Shown in pieces: positions 2,954 through 14,920 of a stretch of DNA of 64,000 nucleotides (positions are counted from its first letter, which is position 1; the number at the start of each line of letters is the position of its first letter). The stretch is from Rhizobium leguminosarum (GTDB taxonomy: Bacteria; Pseudomonadota; Alphaproteobacteria; Rhizobiales; Rhizobiaceae). Location of the stretch: positions 3,188,501-3,252,500 of the forward strand of contig NZ_JAGIOR010000001.1 in assembly GCF_017876795.1 (NCBI RefSeq), written 5' to 3'. The position numbers were made by a program, and so were the translations under genes. The notes beneath the pieces were generated by a model that saw only the letters and a list, made by a program, of their open reading frames with translations, did not search any database and was not told where the DNA came from.

Positions 2954-5068
2954 CTAAATATCGAGGTTTTCGGCGAAGGCCGCGCGGTCCTGGATGAATC
3001 GGAAGCGGGCTTCCGGCTTGGTCCCCATCAGATCGTCGACGGCGCTGCGGGTGCCTTCGAAATCCACCTCGTCGATCAGCACCTTGAGCAGGGTGCGCTT
3101 GGACGGATCCATGGTGGTTTCCTTGAGCTGGGCGGGCATCATTTCGCCGAGACCTTTAAAGCGGCTGATCTCGACCTTGGCCTTGCCCTTGAATTCCGTC
3201 TGCATCAGTTCGGCGCGGTGATTGTCGTCGCGGGCATAGGCGGATTTCGACCCTTGGGTGATCTTGTAAAGCGGCGGCACGGCAAGGAAAAGATGGCCGC
3301 CGCGCACCAGCTCCGGCATCTCCTGATAGAAGAAGGTGATCAGCAGCGAGGCGATGTGGGCGCCGTCGACGTCGGCATCGGTCATGACGATGATGCGCTC
3401 GTAGCGCAGGTCTTCGTCGCGGTATTTCGAGCGGGTGCCGCAGCCGAGCGCCTGGATGAGATCGGCGAGCTGCTGGTTGGCGCCGAGTTTTTCGCGGCCG
3501 GCACTGGCAACGTTGAGGATCTTGCCGCGCAGCGGCAGAATCGCCTGGTTGGCGCGGTTGCGCGCCTGCTTGGCCGAACCACCTGCCGAGTCACCCTCGA
3601 CGATGAAGAGTTCGGCGCCTTCGGCGATATTCTGCGAGCAGTCAGCGAGCTTGCCGGGCAGGCGCAGCTTGCGCACCGCGGTCTTGCGGTTGACTTCCTT
3701 TTCCTTGCGGCGGCGCAGGCGCTCCTCGGCGCGCTCGATCACCCAATCGAGCAGCTTGGCCGACTCGTTCGGATTGTCGGCAAGGTAGTGGTCGAAAGGA
3801 TCGCGCAGCGCGTTCTCGACGATGCGCTGGGCCTCGACGGTCGCGAGCTTGTCCTTGGTCTGGCCGACGAATTCCGGCTCGCGGATGAAGATCGACAGCA
3901 TGCCGACGGCCGAGATCATCACGTCATCGGTGGTGATCTGCGCGGCGCGCTTGTTCTGCGTCAGCTCGGCATAGGCCTTCAGGCCCTTGGTCAGCGCGAT
4001 GCGCAGGCCCGCCTCGTGCGTGCCGCCTTCGGGTGTCGGGATGGTGTTGCAATAGGAATGCACCTGCGGATCACCGCCATACCAGGTGATCGCCCATTCC
4101 ATCGAGCCATGGCCGCTGGTCTTCTCGGTCTTGCCGGCAAAGATCTCGCGGGTGACGGTGAATTCCTTGCCCATCGTCGCCTGGAGATAGTCCTTCAAGC
4201 CGCCGGGGAAGTGGAAGACGGCCTTGTCAGGGACCTCGGACCCTTCAGGCAAAACGCCCGCCTCGCAGCTCCAGCGGATCTCGACGCCGCCGAAGAGGTA
4301 GGCCTTCGAGCGCGCCATGCGGAAGACGCGGGCGGCATCGAACCTCATGTGATCCCCAAAGATCTGGGGGTCGGGATGGAAGCGCACGCGGGTGCCGCGG
4401 CGATTGTGGACGTCGCCCAGCTCTTCCAAGCCGCCCTGCGGCAGGCCGCGGGAGAAGCGCTGGCGGTAGAGTTTGCGGTTGCGCGCCACTTCCACTTCGA
4501 GGTCGTCGGAAAGCGCGTTGACGACCGAGACGCCGACGCCGTGCAGGCCGCCCGAAGTCTCGTAGGCCTTGCCGTCGAATTTGCCGCCGGCATGCAGCTT
4601 GGTCATGATGACTTCGAGCGTCGACTTGCCCGGTACCTGCGGATGGTTCTCGACCGGGATGCCGCGGCCGTTGTCGGAGACGGTGAGATAACCTTCGAGG
4701 TCGAGGTAGACCTCGATGAAATTGGCGTGTCCGGCGACCGCCTCGTCCATCGCATTGTCGATGACTTCGGCAAAAAGGTGATGCAGCGCTTTTTCATCGG
4801 TGCCGCCGATATACATGCCCGGGCGCATGCGCACCGGCTCGAGGCCTTCGAGGACGCGGATCGACGAGGCGCCGTATTCGTCCGAATTCGACGCAGCGGG
4901 CGCCGGCCGGGCTGATGCTCCGGCAGTAGGGGGTGCTGCAGCGGCAGGTGGGGCAGGGGCGGGCGCAGCCGTGACCGGCGGCCGCTCGGCCGGAGCGGCA
5001 GGCTTGTGCGCCTCCTCGCGTTTTTCAGAGAGAGGCATTCCGGAAAAGAGGTCGTTGCTATCGTCCAT
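2954..5068 (-). CDS. parE: DNA topoisomerase IV subunit B
   Basis: This is the ATPase subunit of topoisomerase IV, which decatenates daughter chromosomes. A 704-residue protein is read from the ATG at 5068 (MDDSNDLFSGMPLSEKRE). Longer in-frame starts up to 5290 add a basic, poorly conserved tail and are rejected. Residues about 1-65 are an Ala/Pro-rich linker, then the GHKL ATPase begins (VLEGLEPVRMRPGMYIGG, EVIDNAMDEA, DNGRGIP, GGLHGVGVSVVNAL). The transducer follows, and the TOPRIM domain starts near residue 485 (VEGDSAGGSAKQARNR and MTDADVDGAHI, the Mg-binding acidic residues). The length, well below the about 800 of GyrB, and the ParE-type C-terminus favour ParE. It is divergent from the secreted hydrolase at 5277. 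Confidence 0.95.
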   Translation of the reverse strand: MDDSNDLFSGMPLSEKREEAHKPAAPAERPPVTAAPAPAPPAAAAPPTAGASARPAPAASNSDEYGASSIRVLEGLEPVRMRPGMYIGGTDEKALHHLFAEVIDNAMDEAVAGHANFIEVYLDLEGYLTVSDNGRGIPVENHPQVPGKSTLEVIMTKLHAGGKFDGKAYETSGGLHGVGVSVVNALSDDLEVEVARNRKLYRQRFSRGLPQGGLEELGDVHNRRGTRVRFHPDPQIFGDHMRFDAARVFRMARSKAYLFGGVEIRWSCEAGVLPEGSEVPDKAVFHFPGGLKDYLQATMGKEFTVTREIFAGKTEKTSGHGSMEWAITWYGGDPQVHSYCNTIPTPEGGTHEAGLRIALTKGLKAYAELTQNKRAAQITTDDVMISAVGMLSIFIREPEFVGQTKDKLATVEAQRIVENALRDPFDHYLADNPNESAKLLDWVIERAEERLRRRKEKEVNRKTAVRKLRLPGKLADCSQNIAEGAELFIVEGDSAGGSAKQARNRANQAILPLRGKILNVASAGREKLGANQQLADLIQALGCGTRSKYRDEDLRYERIIVMTDADVDGAHIASLLITFFYQEMPELVRGGHLFLAVPPLYKITQGSKSAYARDDNHRAELMQTEFKGKAKVEISRFKGLGEMMPAQLKETTMDPSKRTLLKVLIDEVDFEGTRSAVDDLMGTKPEARFRFIQDRAAFAENLDI

Positions 5069-10086: not shown

Positions 10087-11175
10087 TCAGGCAGCGGCCG
10101 GCAGCGGGCCAATATAGACCGAGCGCGGACGAATCAGCCGGCCATCGAGCGCCTGTTCGCGGGCATGCGCCAGCCATCCGACGGTGCGGCCGATCGCAAA
10201 GACGCCGGTGAAGGCCTGCCGCGGGAAGCCGAGCGTTTCCAGCAGCAGCGCCGTGTAGAACTCGACATTGACGTCGAGCGGCCGGTTGGGCTTGCGCAGC
10301 TTCAGGATCGCCAAGGCGGCAGCTTCCACGGCTTCCGCCAGCGCGCCGCGGGCGCTGTCGACCTGCCCGGTTGATATCAGCGGCTTCAGGGCGCCCTTCA
10401 GCGCATCGGCGCGCGGATCGCGGACGCGATAGATGCGGTGGCCGAAGCCCATCAGCCGTTCGCCGCGATCAAGGGCTTCGCCTAGCCATAGCTCGGCGTT
10501 CTCGGCCGTTCCGATCGCGTCCAGCATGTCGAGCACCGGACCGGGCGCACCACCATGCAGCGGCCCCTTCAGCGCGCTCAGCGCCGCCAGAACCGAAGAG
10601 GTGAGCCCGGCTTGGGTCGAGGCGATGACGCGCGATGCGAAGGTCGAGGCATTGAGGCCATGGTCCGATATCGTCACGAGGTAGGCGTCGAGCGCCGCCG
10701 TCTGCTCCCTGATTGGCAATTTGCCGGTCAGCATGCGCAGGATATCGGCCGCCTGCGGCAGCGAGGCGTTGGGCGCGATCGGTTTTTCGCCGCGCTGCAG
10801 GCGTAGAACCGCCGGCAGGAAGACGGCGGGCGCTGCCAGAAGGCTGAGCGCTGTATCGAAATCCTCACCGTCCGGCAGCCGGGCGATCAGCGCCCGCATC
10901 GCGTCGACTGGAGGCAGGGCGAGCAGGGCGGCATCGGCAGCCTTGATATGATTGAACACTCCAGTTCGGGCTTTCGCCAGCCAGCCGCGCAATTCGCTTT
11001 CGCCGAAGCTTCGTTCCATCAGCCCGTCGAGCAATAGCGCGGCGACACCTTCATAGGTGCCGTCTGCGACCAGTTGATCCAGCGATATGCCGCGGATGAT
11101 CAGTCGCCCCGCTTCGCCATCGACATCCGAGAGTTGCGTTTCGGCGGCAATGATATCTTCCAAGCCGTTTTTCAT
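10087..11175 (-). CDS. Citrate synthase / methylcitrate synthase-type enzyme
   Basis: The 362-residue protein is read from an ATG at 11175 with an excellent AAAGGAG site eight bases upstream; the longer reading to 11229 lacks one. It carries the citrate synthase catalytic triad: ISDHGLNASTFASRV (first His), GPLHGGAP (second His) and GFGHRIYRVRDPRAD (His, Arg and catalytic Asp). The C-terminal IGRTVGWLAHAREQ, which binds substrate carboxylates, is also present. It should condense oxaloacetate with acetyl-CoA or propionyl-CoA. At 362 residues it is shorter than the about 430-residue hexameric GltA and resembles short type I or methylcitrate synthases. It diverges from the HTH-citrate synthase at 11261. 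Confidence 0.88.
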   Translation of the reverse strand: MKNGLEDIIAAETQLSDVDGEAGRLIIRGISLDQLVADGTYEGVAALLLDGLMERSFGESELRGWLAKARTGVFNHIKAADAALLALPPVDAMRALIARLPDGEDFDTALSLLAAPAVFLPAVLRLQRGEKPIAPNASLPQAADILRMLTGKLPIREQTAALDAYLVTISDHGLNASTFASRVIASTQAGLTSSVLAALSALKGPLHGGAPGPVLDMLDAIGTAENAELWLGEALDRGERLMGFGHRIYRVRDPRADALKGALKPLISTGQVDSARGALAEAVEAAALAILKLRKPNRPLDVNVEFYTALLLETLGFPRQAFTGVFAIGRTVGWLAHAREQALDGRLIRPRSVYIGPLPAAA

Positions 11176-11218
11176 ATTTGTTTTCTCCTTTACGGCCGGG
11201 ATGATCCGCCCTACTCTC

Positions 11219-11248
11219 ATTGACGTCAATCTTGACGCAATTGATCAA
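11219..11248. promoter_or_regulatory. Palindromic operator-like site between two citrate synthase genes
   Basis: The 85-base divergent intergenic region contains a perfect 12-bp palindrome, ATTGACGTCAAT (11219-11230). A second TTGACGCAA-like half (from 11232) and a further palindrome TTGATCAA (11241-11248) follow. Larger flanking CTCAT...ATGAG symmetry (11216-11254) encloses the whole. Read toward the minus-strand gene, TTGACG with 17-base spacing to GATCAT could form a promoter overlapping the palindrome. The neighbouring gene encodes a protein with an N-terminal HTH, so autoregulation through this site is a natural inference. No binding data are available. Confidence 0.5.
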
Positions 11249-11260
11249 TATGAGGCTCCG

Positions 11261-12406
11261 ATGTCGTGGCTGACCGCCGAGGAGGCGCTACGGGCGCTGA
11301 AGACCAAGCCACAGACGCTCTACGCCAATGTCAGCCGCGGTCGCATCCGTGCCAAGGCCGATCCCACCGACCCACGCCGCAGCCTCTACCAGGCGACCGA
11401 CGTGCAGCGGCTTGCCGAGCGTCATGCCGGCCGCCGCAAGACCGAAACCGTTGCCGCCGAGGCGATAAAGTGGGGCGATCCGGTCCTCTCGTCGGCAATC
11501 TCCACCATTATCAATGGGCGGCTTTTCTATCGCGGACTAGATGCGGCCGATTTTGCCGAGGCAGCGACGCTGGAGCAGACGGCGGCACTGCTTTGGAACG
11601 GTGCGGAAGCGGTGTTCTCCGGCGCCGGCGCCGGGTATGCCGCTCCGTCGCTTGAGGCGGCGTTCCTGGCACTGGCAGGCCGGGTAACATCGGATCTGCC
11701 GTCGCTCGGCCGATCGCCGGCGGCGCTTCGCCGCGAGGCGCAAGGAGTCCTCTCTACCGTCGCCGATGCGCTGGCGCCGGGGCCTTCGGATCGGCCGCTG
11801 CATCTGCGGCTTGCGGAAAGCTGGCAGCGGCCGGATGCTGCCGATTGCCTGCGCCGGGCGCTGGTGCTGCTTGCCGATCACGAACTCAACGCCTCGGCCT
11901 TTGCTGCACGGGTCACGGCATCGGCGGGTGCTGCGCTTTCGGCCGCCGTGCTTTCCGGTCTGGCGACGCTGACCGGGCCGCTGCATGGCGCTGCCTGGCA
12001 GAGTATCGACGCCTTGATCGAGGCCGCTGCCACCCTCGGAGCCGAGCAGGCGATCCGTCGCACGCTTGCCCAGGGCCATCGCCTGTCGGCCTTTGGCCAT
12101 CCGCTCTATCCCGACGGCGATATCCGAGCTCTCGCACTGCTCTCGCATTTTCCCCTGCCGCTGGAATTTGCAGACCTCCGTGACACGGGCGAAGTGATGA
12201 TCGGCGAGAAAGTCAATCTCGATTTCGCGCTTGCCGCGATGGCCGCCGCCTTCGATCTCCCGAAGGAGGCGCCGATCATCATGTTCTCGCTTGCCCGTTC
12301 CGCCGGTTGGCTTGCACATGCGATGGAGCAGATCGACAGCGGCGAATTGATCCGGCCGCGGGCACGTTATGCCGGACCAGCGCCGGAAACCGATACCAGC
12401 CGCTAA
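11261..12406 (+). CDS. Citrate synthase family protein with N-terminal helix-turn-helix
   Basis: The 381-residue protein starts at the ATG at 11261 (TGAGG upstream). Residues 1-55 form a MerR/excisionase-like HTH: MSWLTAEEALRALKTKPQTL, then YANVSRGRIRAKADP, then SLYQATDVQRLAERHAGRRK. Residues about 70-381 are a citrate synthase domain, with LADHELNASAFAARV, GPLHGAAW and SLARSAGWLAHAMEQ. The third motif is AFGHPLYPDGDIRA, where GHR becomes GHP and DPRA becomes DIRA, so catalysis may be altered. This could be a metabolite-sensing transcription factor built on an enzyme fold, or an enzyme with a DNA-binding tail. It is divergent from a citrate synthase with an intact active site, with a palindromic site between them. 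Confidence 0.85.
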   Translation: MSWLTAEEALRALKTKPQTLYANVSRGRIRAKADPTDPRRSLYQATDVQRLAERHAGRRKTETVAAEAIKWGDPVLSSAISTIINGRLFYRGLDAADFAEAATLEQTAALLWNGAEAVFSGAGAGYAAPSLEAAFLALAGRVTSDLPSLGRSPAALRREAQGVLSTVADALAPGPSDRPLHLRLAESWQRPDAADCLRRALVLLADHELNASAFAARVTASAGAALSAAVLSGLATLTGPLHGAAWQSIDALIEAAATLGAEQAIRRTLAQGHRLSAFGHPLYPDGDIRALALLSHFPLPLEFADLRDTGEVMIGEKVNLDFALAAMAAAFDLPKEAPIIMFSLARSAGWLAHAMEQIDSGELIRPRARYAGPAPETDTSR

Positions 12407-12541: not shown

Positions 12542-13060
12542 ATGAATACGACGCTTCGCAGCCTGTTTGCCGCCGCACTCGCTGTCGGTCTCATTCCACA
12601 TGAGGCGGCCTTCGCGCAGTCTGCCGGCTGCACGATCGCGCGCGGCGCCGGCGCCCGCCAGGTGTTCACTTGTCCCGGCGGAGTAAAGATCACGGCGGAG
12701 GCCGGCGCTTCGTTTCGCCTTGCCGACCGCAACAGTGACGGCAGCCCCGATTCGGCATCGCTGCGGCGCAAGGCGATCCTCGTCGATGTCGACAGCAGCC
12801 AACATGCCGGCGGTTTTCAGGTGGTGACACCACAGGCGATCGCTGCGGTGCGCGGCACGCAATGGGCCGTCGACGTCGCAAGCGGCAAGACTTCGGTGCT
12901 GGTCGTCAGAGGCAGCGTCGCGGTCCGCCGGCCGGCCGGCGAGCAGGTGGTGCTGTCGCCGGGCGAGGGCGTCGATGTCAGCGGCGGGACCGAACCGCTC
13001 GTCGTGCGTCGCTGGCCGGCGCCGCGCGCCGCCGCCCTCCTTGCCCGCCTCGGCCAATAA
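12542..13060 (+). CDS. Periplasmic FecR-domain protein
   Basis: The protein has 172 residues with a Sec signal peptide ending near AAFAQSAG. The mature part holds a FecR-type beta domain: VVTPQAIAAVRGTQWAVDV, then KTSVLVVRGSVAVRRP and VVLSPGEGVDV. Unlike FecR anti-sigma factors it has no cytoplasmic N-terminal domain, so it probably acts wholly in the periplasm. The stop codon is only three bases before the start of the CHASE2/cyclase gene, which indicates an operon. FecR-like proteins next to CHASE2 sensors recur in bacteria, which suggests a periplasmic partner or ligand-presenting role for the cyclase; that role is inference. Confidence 0.82.
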   Translation: MNTTLRSLFAAALAVGLIPHEAAFAQSAGCTIARGAGARQVFTCPGGVKITAEAGASFRLADRNSDGSPDSASLRRKAILVDVDSSQHAGGFQVVTPQAIAAVRGTQWAVDVASGKTSVLVVRGSVAVRRPAGEQVVLSPGEGVDVSGGTEPLVVRRWPAPRAAALLARLGQ

Positions 13061-13063
13061 TCG

Positions 13064-14920
13064 ATGAACCATCGCCTGCAGACGGTGATCGCGCTGTTTT
13101 TCGCCGGTCTTTGGGGAGCTGCGCTCGGCTATGCCAATCTCACTGCCGGAAGCGGCGTTCTCGACCGGATGGAGGCCTCGCTCACCGATATCCGCAGCGT
13201 TATCGTCGGGGGGAAGACACCGCCTCCCGGCGTCTCGATCGTCGCCATCGACGACCGCTCCGCGGCGACCCACGGCTATCCCCTGGATCGGGCCACACTT
13301 GCGCGCCTTGTCGGCGCGATCGCCGCCTTGAAGCCGAGGGCCCTGGCGCTCGACATTCTGCTGGTCGATCCCGGGCCGGAGGAGGGCGATGCGGCGCTGG
13401 CTACCGCCCTTGCCCAGGGGCCGAGCGTAATTGCGGCTGCGGCCACCTTTGCCGGAAGCAGCCAGCAAGTCACCGATGCGGCCAACGATCCGCTCGCCGC
13501 CATCCCCGAGGCAGGTCAGCTTCTGTTGCCGCTTCCCCGTTTTGCCGAGGCGGCCGCCGTCGGCATCGTCAATGTCGCAACCGACCAGACCGGCACGCCG
13601 CGCTACATTCCGCTGATCTCACGCGCCGCGGATCGGCTGGATCCGGCCTTTCCGCTGCGTGCCGCATCGATGGCGCTCGGCGTCGATCCCACCATCGAAC
13701 CTGACGCCATCATGCTCGGAAAGCTGCGTATTCCCACAGATATCGGCCAGCGGCTGCCGGTGACCTTCTATGGCGGGCACGGCAGCATCGCCACCTTCAG
13801 CGCCACCGATGCGCTGGATGGCACGCTTTCGGCCGATGCGGTCGCCGGCCGCATCGTCGTCATCGGCTCGACGGTTACCGGTGGCGGCGACGTCTTCCCG
13901 ACGCCGTTCGATCCGGTTATGCCCGGCGTCGAGGTGATGTCGACGGCGATCACTCATCTCGTCAGCGGCGACGGCATGGTGCGCGACCACCGGATAAGGC
14001 TGATCGATGCCGGCATCGCCGTCGGGCTGCCGCTCGTGCTCGTTTCGCTGATCGCCTGGCGGCGAAGCGCTGCGGGCTATCTCATCATCGTCTTGACGCT
14101 GATCGTCTGGGCGCTGCTCAATCTGGCGGCCTTTGCGCATGGTTACTGGCTGAGCGCGGCGCTTCCGATCGCCGCAGCGCTGCCGCCGGCGCTGATTTTC
14201 GGCGCGGCCGAACTCTGGCTCGATCGCGGCCGTGCCCGCCATTTTGCCGAGCAGAGCGCGCTGCTGCAACGCATCGAGGCGCCCGGCCTCGGCGAGTGGC
14301 TGGCGCGCGATCCGAATTTCCTTGCCCAGCCGGTGCGCCAGAACGCCGCCGTCATCTTCATCGATCTCTCGGGTTTCACCGGCCTCAGCGAAAACCTCGG
14401 GCCGGTCAAGGTCAGCGAGGTGCTGAGCGGCTTCTTCGAACTGATCGACGAGGAGGCGCGCGCCCACGGCGGCGCCATCACCAGCTTCATGGGCGATGGG
14501 GCGATGATCCTGTTCGGCCTGCCGGAGCCTGCCGATGACGATGCCGCCCGGGCGGCCGCCTGCGCCGTCAGCCTGTGCGAGCGCACCCGAGCCTGGCTTG
14601 GATCGCACGGAGGCTTCGCCGAGAAGAAGATCGGCTTCAAGGTCGGCGCCCATTGCGGCCCGATCGTCGCCTCGCGGCTCGGGACCGGCGACCGGCAGCA
14701 GATCACCGCGGCGGGTGACACCATCAATGTCGGCAGCCGCCTGATGGAGGTTGCCGCCCGCCACGGCGTCGAGCTGGCGCTGAGCGCCGAAATCGTCCGT
14801 GCGGCCGGCCCCGACAGCGTGTTGCTACAGGCGGGCCGCATGGAGGGTCCGTTGGAAACGACGTTGCGTGGCCGGGCAAGCCATATCGACGCCTGGCTGT
14901 GGCGCAGCCACACGCTTTGA
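13064..14920 (+). CDS. CHASE2-domain transmembrane class III adenylate/guanylate cyclase
   Basis: The 618-residue sensor cyclase has a first membrane helix (residues about 8-26) and a periplasmic CHASE2 domain (about 30-310, with GVSIVAIDDRS and RPRALALDIL-like segments). Two or three helices follow (about 313-375), then a cytoplasmic class III cyclase domain (about 420-600). Metal-binding aspartates are visible at D434 (FIDLSGFTGLS) and D478 (FMGDGAMILFG), with the transition-state Asn and Arg in TINVGSRLMEVA. It should convert ATP to cAMP in response to an extracytoplasmic signal. The preceding FecR-domain gene is almost contiguous and likely cotranscribed. Confidence 0.9.
   Translation: MNHRLQTVIALFFAGLWGAALGYANLTAGSGVLDRMEASLTDIRSVIVGGKTPPPGVSIVAIDDRSAATHGYPLDRATLARLVGAIAALKPRALALDILLVDPGPEEGDAALATALAQGPSVIAAAATFAGSSQQVTDAANDPLAAIPEAGQLLLPLPRFAEAAAVGIVNVATDQTGTPRYIPLISRAADRLDPAFPLRAASMALGVDPTIEPDAIMLGKLRIPTDIGQRLPVTFYGGHGSIATFSATDALDGTLSADAVAGRIVVIGSTVTGGGDVFPTPFDPVMPGVEVMSTAITHLVSGDGMVRDHRIRLIDAGIAVGLPLVLVSLIAWRRSAAGYLIIVLTLIVWALLNLAAFAHGYWLSAALPIAAALPPALIFGAAELWLDRGRARHFAEQSALLQRIEAPGLGEWLARDPNFLAQPVRQNAAVIFIDLSGFTGLSENLGPVKVSEVLSGFFELIDEEARAHGGAITSFMGDGAMILFGLPEPADDDAARAAACAVSLCERTRAWLGSHGGFAEKKIGFKVGAHCGPIVASRLGTGDRQQITAAGDTINVGSRLMEVAARHGVELALSAEIVRAAGPDSVLLQAGRMEGPLETTLRGRASHIDAWLWRSHTL

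Follow-up and report, generated by a model that had tools for sequence, protein, structure and literature searches.

A MerR-type helix-turn-helix domain joined to a citrate synthase fold as a predicted regulator with a conserved operator

Classical metal-type MerR regulators have their operator inside an over-long promoter spacer of 19-20 bp. The prp operon is governed in Salmonella by PrpR, a sigma-54 activator. In Xanthomonas citri PrpR is a repressor that binds GTTGCAA-N2-TTGCAAC (PMC12153269), and MocR regulators consist of a GntR-type helix-turn-helix (HTH) with an aminotransferase-like sensor (PMC5320631). SCO5831 of S. coelicolor is called citrate synthase-like. In the literature searched, which mostly excluded subscription papers, we recognised no description of an HTH-citrate synthase regulator; the accessible parts of PMC9739823, PMC7324645, PMC12838130, PMC12153269, PMC6765138 and PMC6572756 contain none, and look-ups in PMC5343134 and PMC3840689 were also without a match.

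The protein described here, an HTH-citrate synthase (CS) fusion, is encoded in the window, i.e. the whole stretch of 64,000 nucleotides that was analysed. We consider that it is probably an autoregulatory, single-target one-component transcription factor in which the CS domain serves as ligand sensor. The features of the locus are as follows.

10087..11175, minus strand: divergent citrate synthase paralogue of the NCBIfam PRK12350 group, 362 aa (ATG at 11175, stop at 10087), the predicted target gene; Glu at the catalytic-Asp position
11201..11229, minus strand: promoter-like pair TTGACG-17-GATCAT directed towards the CS gene (matched to the consensus only; 1 found against 0.2 expected)
11219..11230, no strand: exact palindrome ATTGACGTCAAT, overlapping the predicted operator and conserved in part of the family
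11226..11249, plus strand: operator TCAATCTTGAC-N7-ATCAAT, predicted from conservation; contains the inverted repeat TTGAC-N7-ATCAA (11232-11248)
11261..12406 (stop included), plus strand: HTH-CS fusion, the predicted regulator, 381 aa (ATG at 11261)
11261..11431, plus strand: MerR/excisionase-type winged HTH, residues 1-57 (Pfam, homologues, models, structural matches)
11432..11482, plus strand: linker, residues 58-74 (model pLDDT below 50)
11483..12403, plus strand: citrate synthase fold, residues 75-381, catalytic residues retained (Pfam, alignment, model)

The citrate synthase part of the protein is clearly recognised by Pfam (Citrate_synt, PF00285, E 4e-49, 168 bits against a cut-off of 27). 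HTH_17 matches residues 3-55 of the window protein with an E value of 0.0024 and 18.5 bits, and the failure to reach its cut-off of 27 is a point against the regulator reading. We nevertheless regard the HTH as real because, among 54 aligned homologues (E 0.01), 43 match HTH_17 and 12 match MerR_1, with Citrate_synt in all 54, and because of a structural resemblance to MerR-type proteins. The structure model of the window protein has the citrate synthase fold and an N-terminal winged HTH of the MerR class, with a helix (residues 45-56) behind the HTH and then the low-confidence linker. When the HTH was modelled alone, a second structural aligner found it to resemble Xis, SoxR, CarH, CadR, BldC and GlnR/TnrA, i.e. 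MerR-type and excisionase chains ranked first, with some unrelated chains interspersed. Foldseek with the HTH alone gave no match at E 0.001, MarR-type chains standing ahead of and mixed with the MerR-type ones, and the HTH profile had zero matches to PDB sequences at E 0.1. The AAA+ domain and Fis-type HTH of sigma-54-type regulators such as PrpR were absent, as Pfam at E 1 returned Citrate_synt and HTH_17 only. The earlier note had read the protein as a MerR/excisionase-like HTH joined to a CS domain, which the Pfam matches in the homologues and the models bear out.

The two divergent genes are separated by 85 bases (11176-11260), as the earlier note had it. The palindrome ATTGACGTCAAT to which it drew attention in this gap is indeed exact, at 11219-11230. 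By itself it is weak: a 12-bp palindrome was sought in 64 kb, and with up to two mismatches it was found 4 times in the window against 1.78 expected. It was dropped as stand-alone evidence, the case therefore rests on conservation, and it is through conservation that the palindrome is more than chance. A search of the bacterium's own genome for the family-wide site described below, allowing two mismatches, gave one exact match, at this locus, and three matches with two mismatches (reversed control, 2); the longer rhizobial pattern, allowing three mismatches, gave one match against none for the control. In the sole promoter-like match in the gap, a weak match to the consensus only, 17 bases separate the two hexamers, and the dyad lies upstream. 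Its TTGACG at 11229-11224 resembles a -35 hexamer, and an additional TCAA half-site overlaps this -35-like hexamer of the CS gene.

TTGACGTCAATCTTGA is identical in each of 25 loci, 24 of them from the same genus (the own genome counted) and one from a genome of another family, while much of its surroundings is variable. Among 297 genomes of the order, 9 contain the rhizobial form of the site (18 bases) without a mismatch. Across three proteobacterial classes, relatives share the family-wide site TCAATCTTGAY-N7-RTCAAY just upstream of the gene; the ATTGACGTCAAT palindrome extends it in only part of the HTH-CS family.

The generality of this site was evaluated on 120 HTH-CS loci, i.e. thirty loci (L045-L074), ten plasmid regions and the 80 best loci of a genome scan that were chosen on protein motifs and not on the operator; near-copies are included and the window's own locus is among them. 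The dyad TTGA[TC]-N7-[AG]TCAA is found between -150 and +40 of the start codon in 110 of the 120 loci, compared with 6 of 4376 control windows. For the CAAT[CA]TTGA-like core (CAATCTTGA-like) the counts are 114 of 120 and 10 of 4376; the control windows are equal in length and come from the same loci, but, being mostly coding, they match the composition of intergenic DNA incompletely. In most cases the site stops 1-14 bases short of the HTH-CS start. Of the 63 loci in which the CS start could be placed, at least 58 have the TTGA of the site at a distance of 54-62 bases from it.

Five of the dyad misses carry a TTGAA arm (L142, L146, L153, L159 and L164, from Bosea and relatives), and a Deinococcus locus (L081) is missed with a spacer of 6 bases. 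Both motif forms are missing at the gene in four of the 120 loci (L064, L078, L145, L157), which counts against the regulator reading. No recognisable operator was present in the flanking DNA examined of L064, L145 and L157, where the site may have diverged, the start codon may be wrong or the function may be lost. Only for L078, on a Burkholderia cenocepacia plasmid, was the site found elsewhere in the DNA examined. Here the HTH-CS gene closes an operon of four genes on one strand, after SDR, MFS and VOC, and no site precedes it; two sites with one and two mismatches, at positions 3093 and 3262 of the locus, fall between the first operon gene and a divergent gene for D-glycerate dehydrogenase. 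In other words, in this operon the motif marks the promoter and not the start of the HTH-CS gene.

HTH-CS proteins (matches below 1e-100) are present in 24 of 25 same-genus genomes, own included, and in 1 of 16 other genomes of the order. In a phylum sample, 36 of 299 genomes match the profile at 1e-40. Twenty further genomes out of these 36 were searched with at most one mismatch: 16 have the site, beside the HTH-CS gene in 15, and the reversed control gave 0. Three sites lie away from the gene (in G210, in G514 and the only one of G544), and no site was found at this limit in G448, G548, G337 and G422; that 5 of the 20 have no site beside the gene is a point against the regulator reading. 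A large regulon was also considered, and at the mismatch limits used it is unsupported in the own genome and in the sampled relatives.

Plasmid records gave 75 matches at 1e-20, including Agrobacterium, Ensifer, Burkholderia, Paraburkholderia, Roseomonas and one Deinococcus; among the matches listed, the annotated copies are named citrate synthase, citrate synthase family protein or citrate/2-methylcitrate synthase. The HTH-CS group is large, although the totals of protein searches are inflated by ordinary synthases. The arrangement is not a rhizobial peculiarity.

Some individual loci are unusual. In-frame stops were reported for five loci of the same-genus and order set, and in one genome of the genus (G019, locus L028) the HTH-CS gene was matched as two overlapping pieces, which suggests a frameshift or an assembly error. 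On the Agrobacterium fabrum plasmid pAt1D1478 (L079) the HTH-CS/CS pair lies beside sigma factor, FecR and siderophore-uptake genes, with a possible link to citrate-type iron carriers. Downstream of the pair in the window are genes for a FecR-domain protein (12542-13060, plus strand) and a CHASE2-adenylate/guanylate cyclase (13064-14920, plus strand), possibly a sensor and cyclase pair.

The neighbouring gene is a CS gene in 94 of the 120 loci, and it is divergent in all 94. Among the 26 loci without a CS partner, one (L097) lacks it only because the contig ends, leaving 25 informative ones. Pfam searches on ten non-CS partners revealed a CoA-transferase III in three and, once each, a D-2-hydroxyacid dehydrogenase, a PEP-mutase/ICL type protein, an HMGL-like protein, MFS, DUF2332, DinB and a cation efflux protein. 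In a tree built from 119 distinct proteins, 8 changes of the CS/non-CS label are needed when L097 is left out, 5 of them forced by well-supported branches, and 9 when it is counted, 6 of them forced; the tree is a quick one with several long branches that meet, so that these counts are approximate. The operator stays while the divergent partner changes (CS, prpB, acnD-prpF, CoA-transferase, 2-hydroxyacid dehydrogenase and others), and the CS paralogue is merely the commonest case of a target. The earlier note had proposed an enzyme-derived sensor that regulates the divergent gene via the palindrome. The computational comparison supports this proposal well, with three corrections: the sensor domain retains the catalytic residues checked, a CS is only the commonest target, and the site shared by the family, which is not confined to rhizobia, is TCAATCTTGAY-N7-RTCAAY and not the palindrome.

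A change of partner is well illustrated by three genomes of one family. In these prpB takes the divergent position with prpC behind it, and acnD was seen in two of them. The assignments are by NCBIfam, one copy each: prpB 411 bits (cut-off 354), prpC 717 (550) and acnD 1806 (1420). The family is presumably Lysobacteraceae, because the named relatives of one of these prp-linked HTH-CS proteins are from Pseudoxanthomonas, Luteimonas, Stenotrophomonas and Lysobacteraceae. In 60 genomes sampled from the inferred family, the HTH-CS gene is present in 11 (1e-60). All 11 have a divergent prpB with the site, at 0-1 mismatch, in between, and 9 of them have prpC at 70% identity or more within the flank examined. 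Genome-wide, with at most one mismatch, each of the 11 gene carriers has exactly one site, the one between HTH-CS and prpB, whereas the site is present (with one mismatch) in 1 of the 49 genomes without the gene; the reversed pattern was found in 0 of 60. The predicted control site of the prp branch has the form TCAATCTTGAT-N7-ATCAA. In a genome of another family (G454) the divergent genes are acnD and prpF, again with the site in between. We predict that the HTH-CS protein is a transcription factor because of the dyad in 110 of 120 loci, the changes of partner, the 11 of 11 against 1 of 49 genomes and the promoter sites of the L078 operon.

The active site was compared in two alignments, the first with the window protein and its best 120 homologues listed (63-96% identity; 121 rows), the second with 41 rows, i.e. 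40 loci plus the window protein, which is therefore counted twice. In the first, H207, N210, H242, H280, R289, D321, F342, R346, R365 and R367 are invariant in at least 120 of 121 rows; in the wider set N210 is retained in 37 of 41 and the other catalytic and carboxylate-binding positions in 40-41. The roles of the catalytic His, His and Asp and of the carboxylate-binding Arg residues are those that we assume from pig citrate synthase. The earlier note took the third motif to be changed (GHP, DIRA). It reads GHPLYPDGDIRA in the HTH-CS protein against GHRIYRVRDPRA, the His and Arg of GHxxY...DxRA are unchanged, and the residues that differ are not known to be catalytic; a dead enzyme, as an interpretation of this motif, was ruled out by the retention of both. 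After GHxxY, where a basic residue would be a CoA-phosphate contact, the window protein has Pro; 34 of 41 rows have Pro there, too, and 5 have Lys. The distance from the Arg motif to the catalytic Asp is 32 positions in the HTH-CS protein (289-321) compared with 50 in the partner (255-305), i.e. 18 residues shorter.

The catalytic-Asp position itself holds Asp in all 41 HTH-CS rows and Glu in 93 of 94 divergent CS partners. It is thus the predicted regulator that has the canonical Asp and the presumed enzyme that is a conservative Glu variant, so that the note's statement that the neighbour keeps the full active site needs amending. The one exception among the partners has an abnormal frame (L096, where the divergent CS frame is a 1138-aa open frame, possibly a fusion or a sequence error). 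Glu is also found by alignment at this position in the B. subtilis citrate synthase 2c6x, and together with the 93 partners this can be described as a natural variant. Judged by the catalytic residues checked, the sensor domain is not visibly a dead enzyme, and these residues neither demonstrate nor exclude synthase activity. Their full retention would seem to exceed the need of a mere sensor, which counts against a pure-sensor reading; the lost basic residue after GHxxY speaks against an acyl-CoA as a tightly bound ligand.

The computation supports both folds, a conserved operator, a sole close match in the genome, an operator that follows the gene through partner changes and the retained active-site residues. 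We infer that the HTH-CS protein is the binder of the site, as well as its dimeric state, ligand, domain closure and sign of regulation. The MerR-type winged HTH would recognise the site TCAATCTTGAY-N7-RTCAAY within the divergent promoter of 85 bp. The protein probably binds there as a dimer that is held together by the CS fold; dimerisation could come from this fold instead of the helix behind the HTH. Such a dimer would have two HTHs with which to contact the inverted repeat of 17 bp. The CS fold would sense a CS-type ligand, and the positions of the ligand-binding residues of citrate synthase are conserved in the alignments of HTH-CS proteins. Citrate, 2-methylcitrate or oxaloacetate with acyl-CoA are the first candidates because many partners share 2-oxoacid, acyl-CoA or tricarboxylate chemistry (citrate synthase, methylcitrate cycle, HMGL-type, CoA-transferase, 2-hydroxyacid dehydrogenase); the MFS, DUF2332, DinB and cation-efflux partners do not suggest such chemistry. 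Closure of the CS domains upon ligand binding would alter the spacing of the two HTHs. As the operator lies directly upstream of the HTH-CS start codon and extends into the -35-like region, the most likely outcome is autorepression together with switching of the divergent enzyme gene, which in the window encodes a second citrate synthase. The dyad nearly abuts the HTH-CS start codon, a position suited to autorepression. Should the weak promoter match be correct, the centre of the dyad (11240) would be some 46 bp ahead of the transcription start of the CS gene, from where a regulator may activate.

The retained active site bears on a different explanation, that of a trigger enzyme. The protein would then be an active citrate or methylcitrate synthase with operator binding as a second function, and transcription of the divergent gene would depend on its turnover or on its occupancy by substrate. 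Retention of the catalytic positions in 37-41 of 41 rows, and of Asp in all 41 as opposed to the Glu of 93 of 94 partners, argues for such an enzyme, while the shorter Arg-to-Asp stretch, the Pro in place of a basic residue in 34 of 41 rows and the separate synthase encoded alongside in the Rhizobium and prp loci argue against it, and we hold it to be unlikely. We view with similar reserve, as a doubtful proposition, a self-reporting enzyme-regulator whose catalytic state (oxaloacetate and acyl-CoA in, citrate out) controls its grip on the single operator; if it were true, one polypeptide would measure a reaction and set a second synthase or the methylcitrate cycle in at least three proteobacterial classes.

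Two further explanations do without a regulatory role of the protein. It is very improbable that it is simply an auxiliary citrate synthase whose N-terminal domain is decorative or structural, and that the palindrome serves another, general regulator: databases name many HTH-CS proteins citrate synthase and the presence of a motif alone does not identify its binding protein, yet the HTH residues are conserved across the HTH-CS family, and genomes rarely have a close match to the site other than a single one next to the HTH-CS gene, with none in 48 of 49 inferred Lysobacteraceae that lack the gene. The conserved stretch sits where promoters are expected, and with its -35-like TTGACG it might consist of overlapping divergent promoters only, without a dedicated regulator. 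This we find scarcely credible, since a dyad with a fixed 7-base spacer recurs with unrelated partners in three proteobacterial classes and follows the HTH-CS gene, and the promoter match is weak (1 found against 0.2 expected).

If the protein is the one-component transcription factor that we favour, proteins mostly listed as citrate synthases would become predicted transcription factors with a defined site and a named target per genome, and one citrate synthase too many would disappear from genome annotation and metabolic models. Because the CS pocket is retained, the class of ligand can be tested directly. The prp branch suggests a second route, besides PrpR, for the bacterial control of propionate metabolism. 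Suvorova, Ravcheev and Gelfand reportedly announced new regulators of malonate and propionate genes in 2012 (J Bacteriol 194:3234). One of them may be the prp-linked branch of the HTH-CS family, possibly the 'PrpQ' of Suvorova et al. 2012 and RegPrecise, and we claim no priority there.

Compared with known systems, the prp-linked HTH-CS protein has the same place and target as PrpR, i.e. divergent from prpB, but protein and site differ. Citrate synthase 2/CitA of Mycobacterium tuberculosis and other type II (2-methyl)citrate synthases are without an HTH, unlike the HTH-CS protein, which also has a shorter Arg-to-Asp stretch; among the profile matches to PDB sequences listed (60 of 84), all start at position 73 or later. 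The likeness to the MerR-type regulators (SoxR, CarH and CadR, GlnR/TnrA, BldC) and to phage Xis is in the winged HTH of the window protein. By sequence and predicted fold, the HTH-CS protein belongs both to the MerR-type HTH class and to the citrate synthase superfamily. We claim no relationship to the MocR regulators, in which both HTH class and enzyme fold differ; the principle is the same, i.e. an enzyme fold reused as a one-component sensor.
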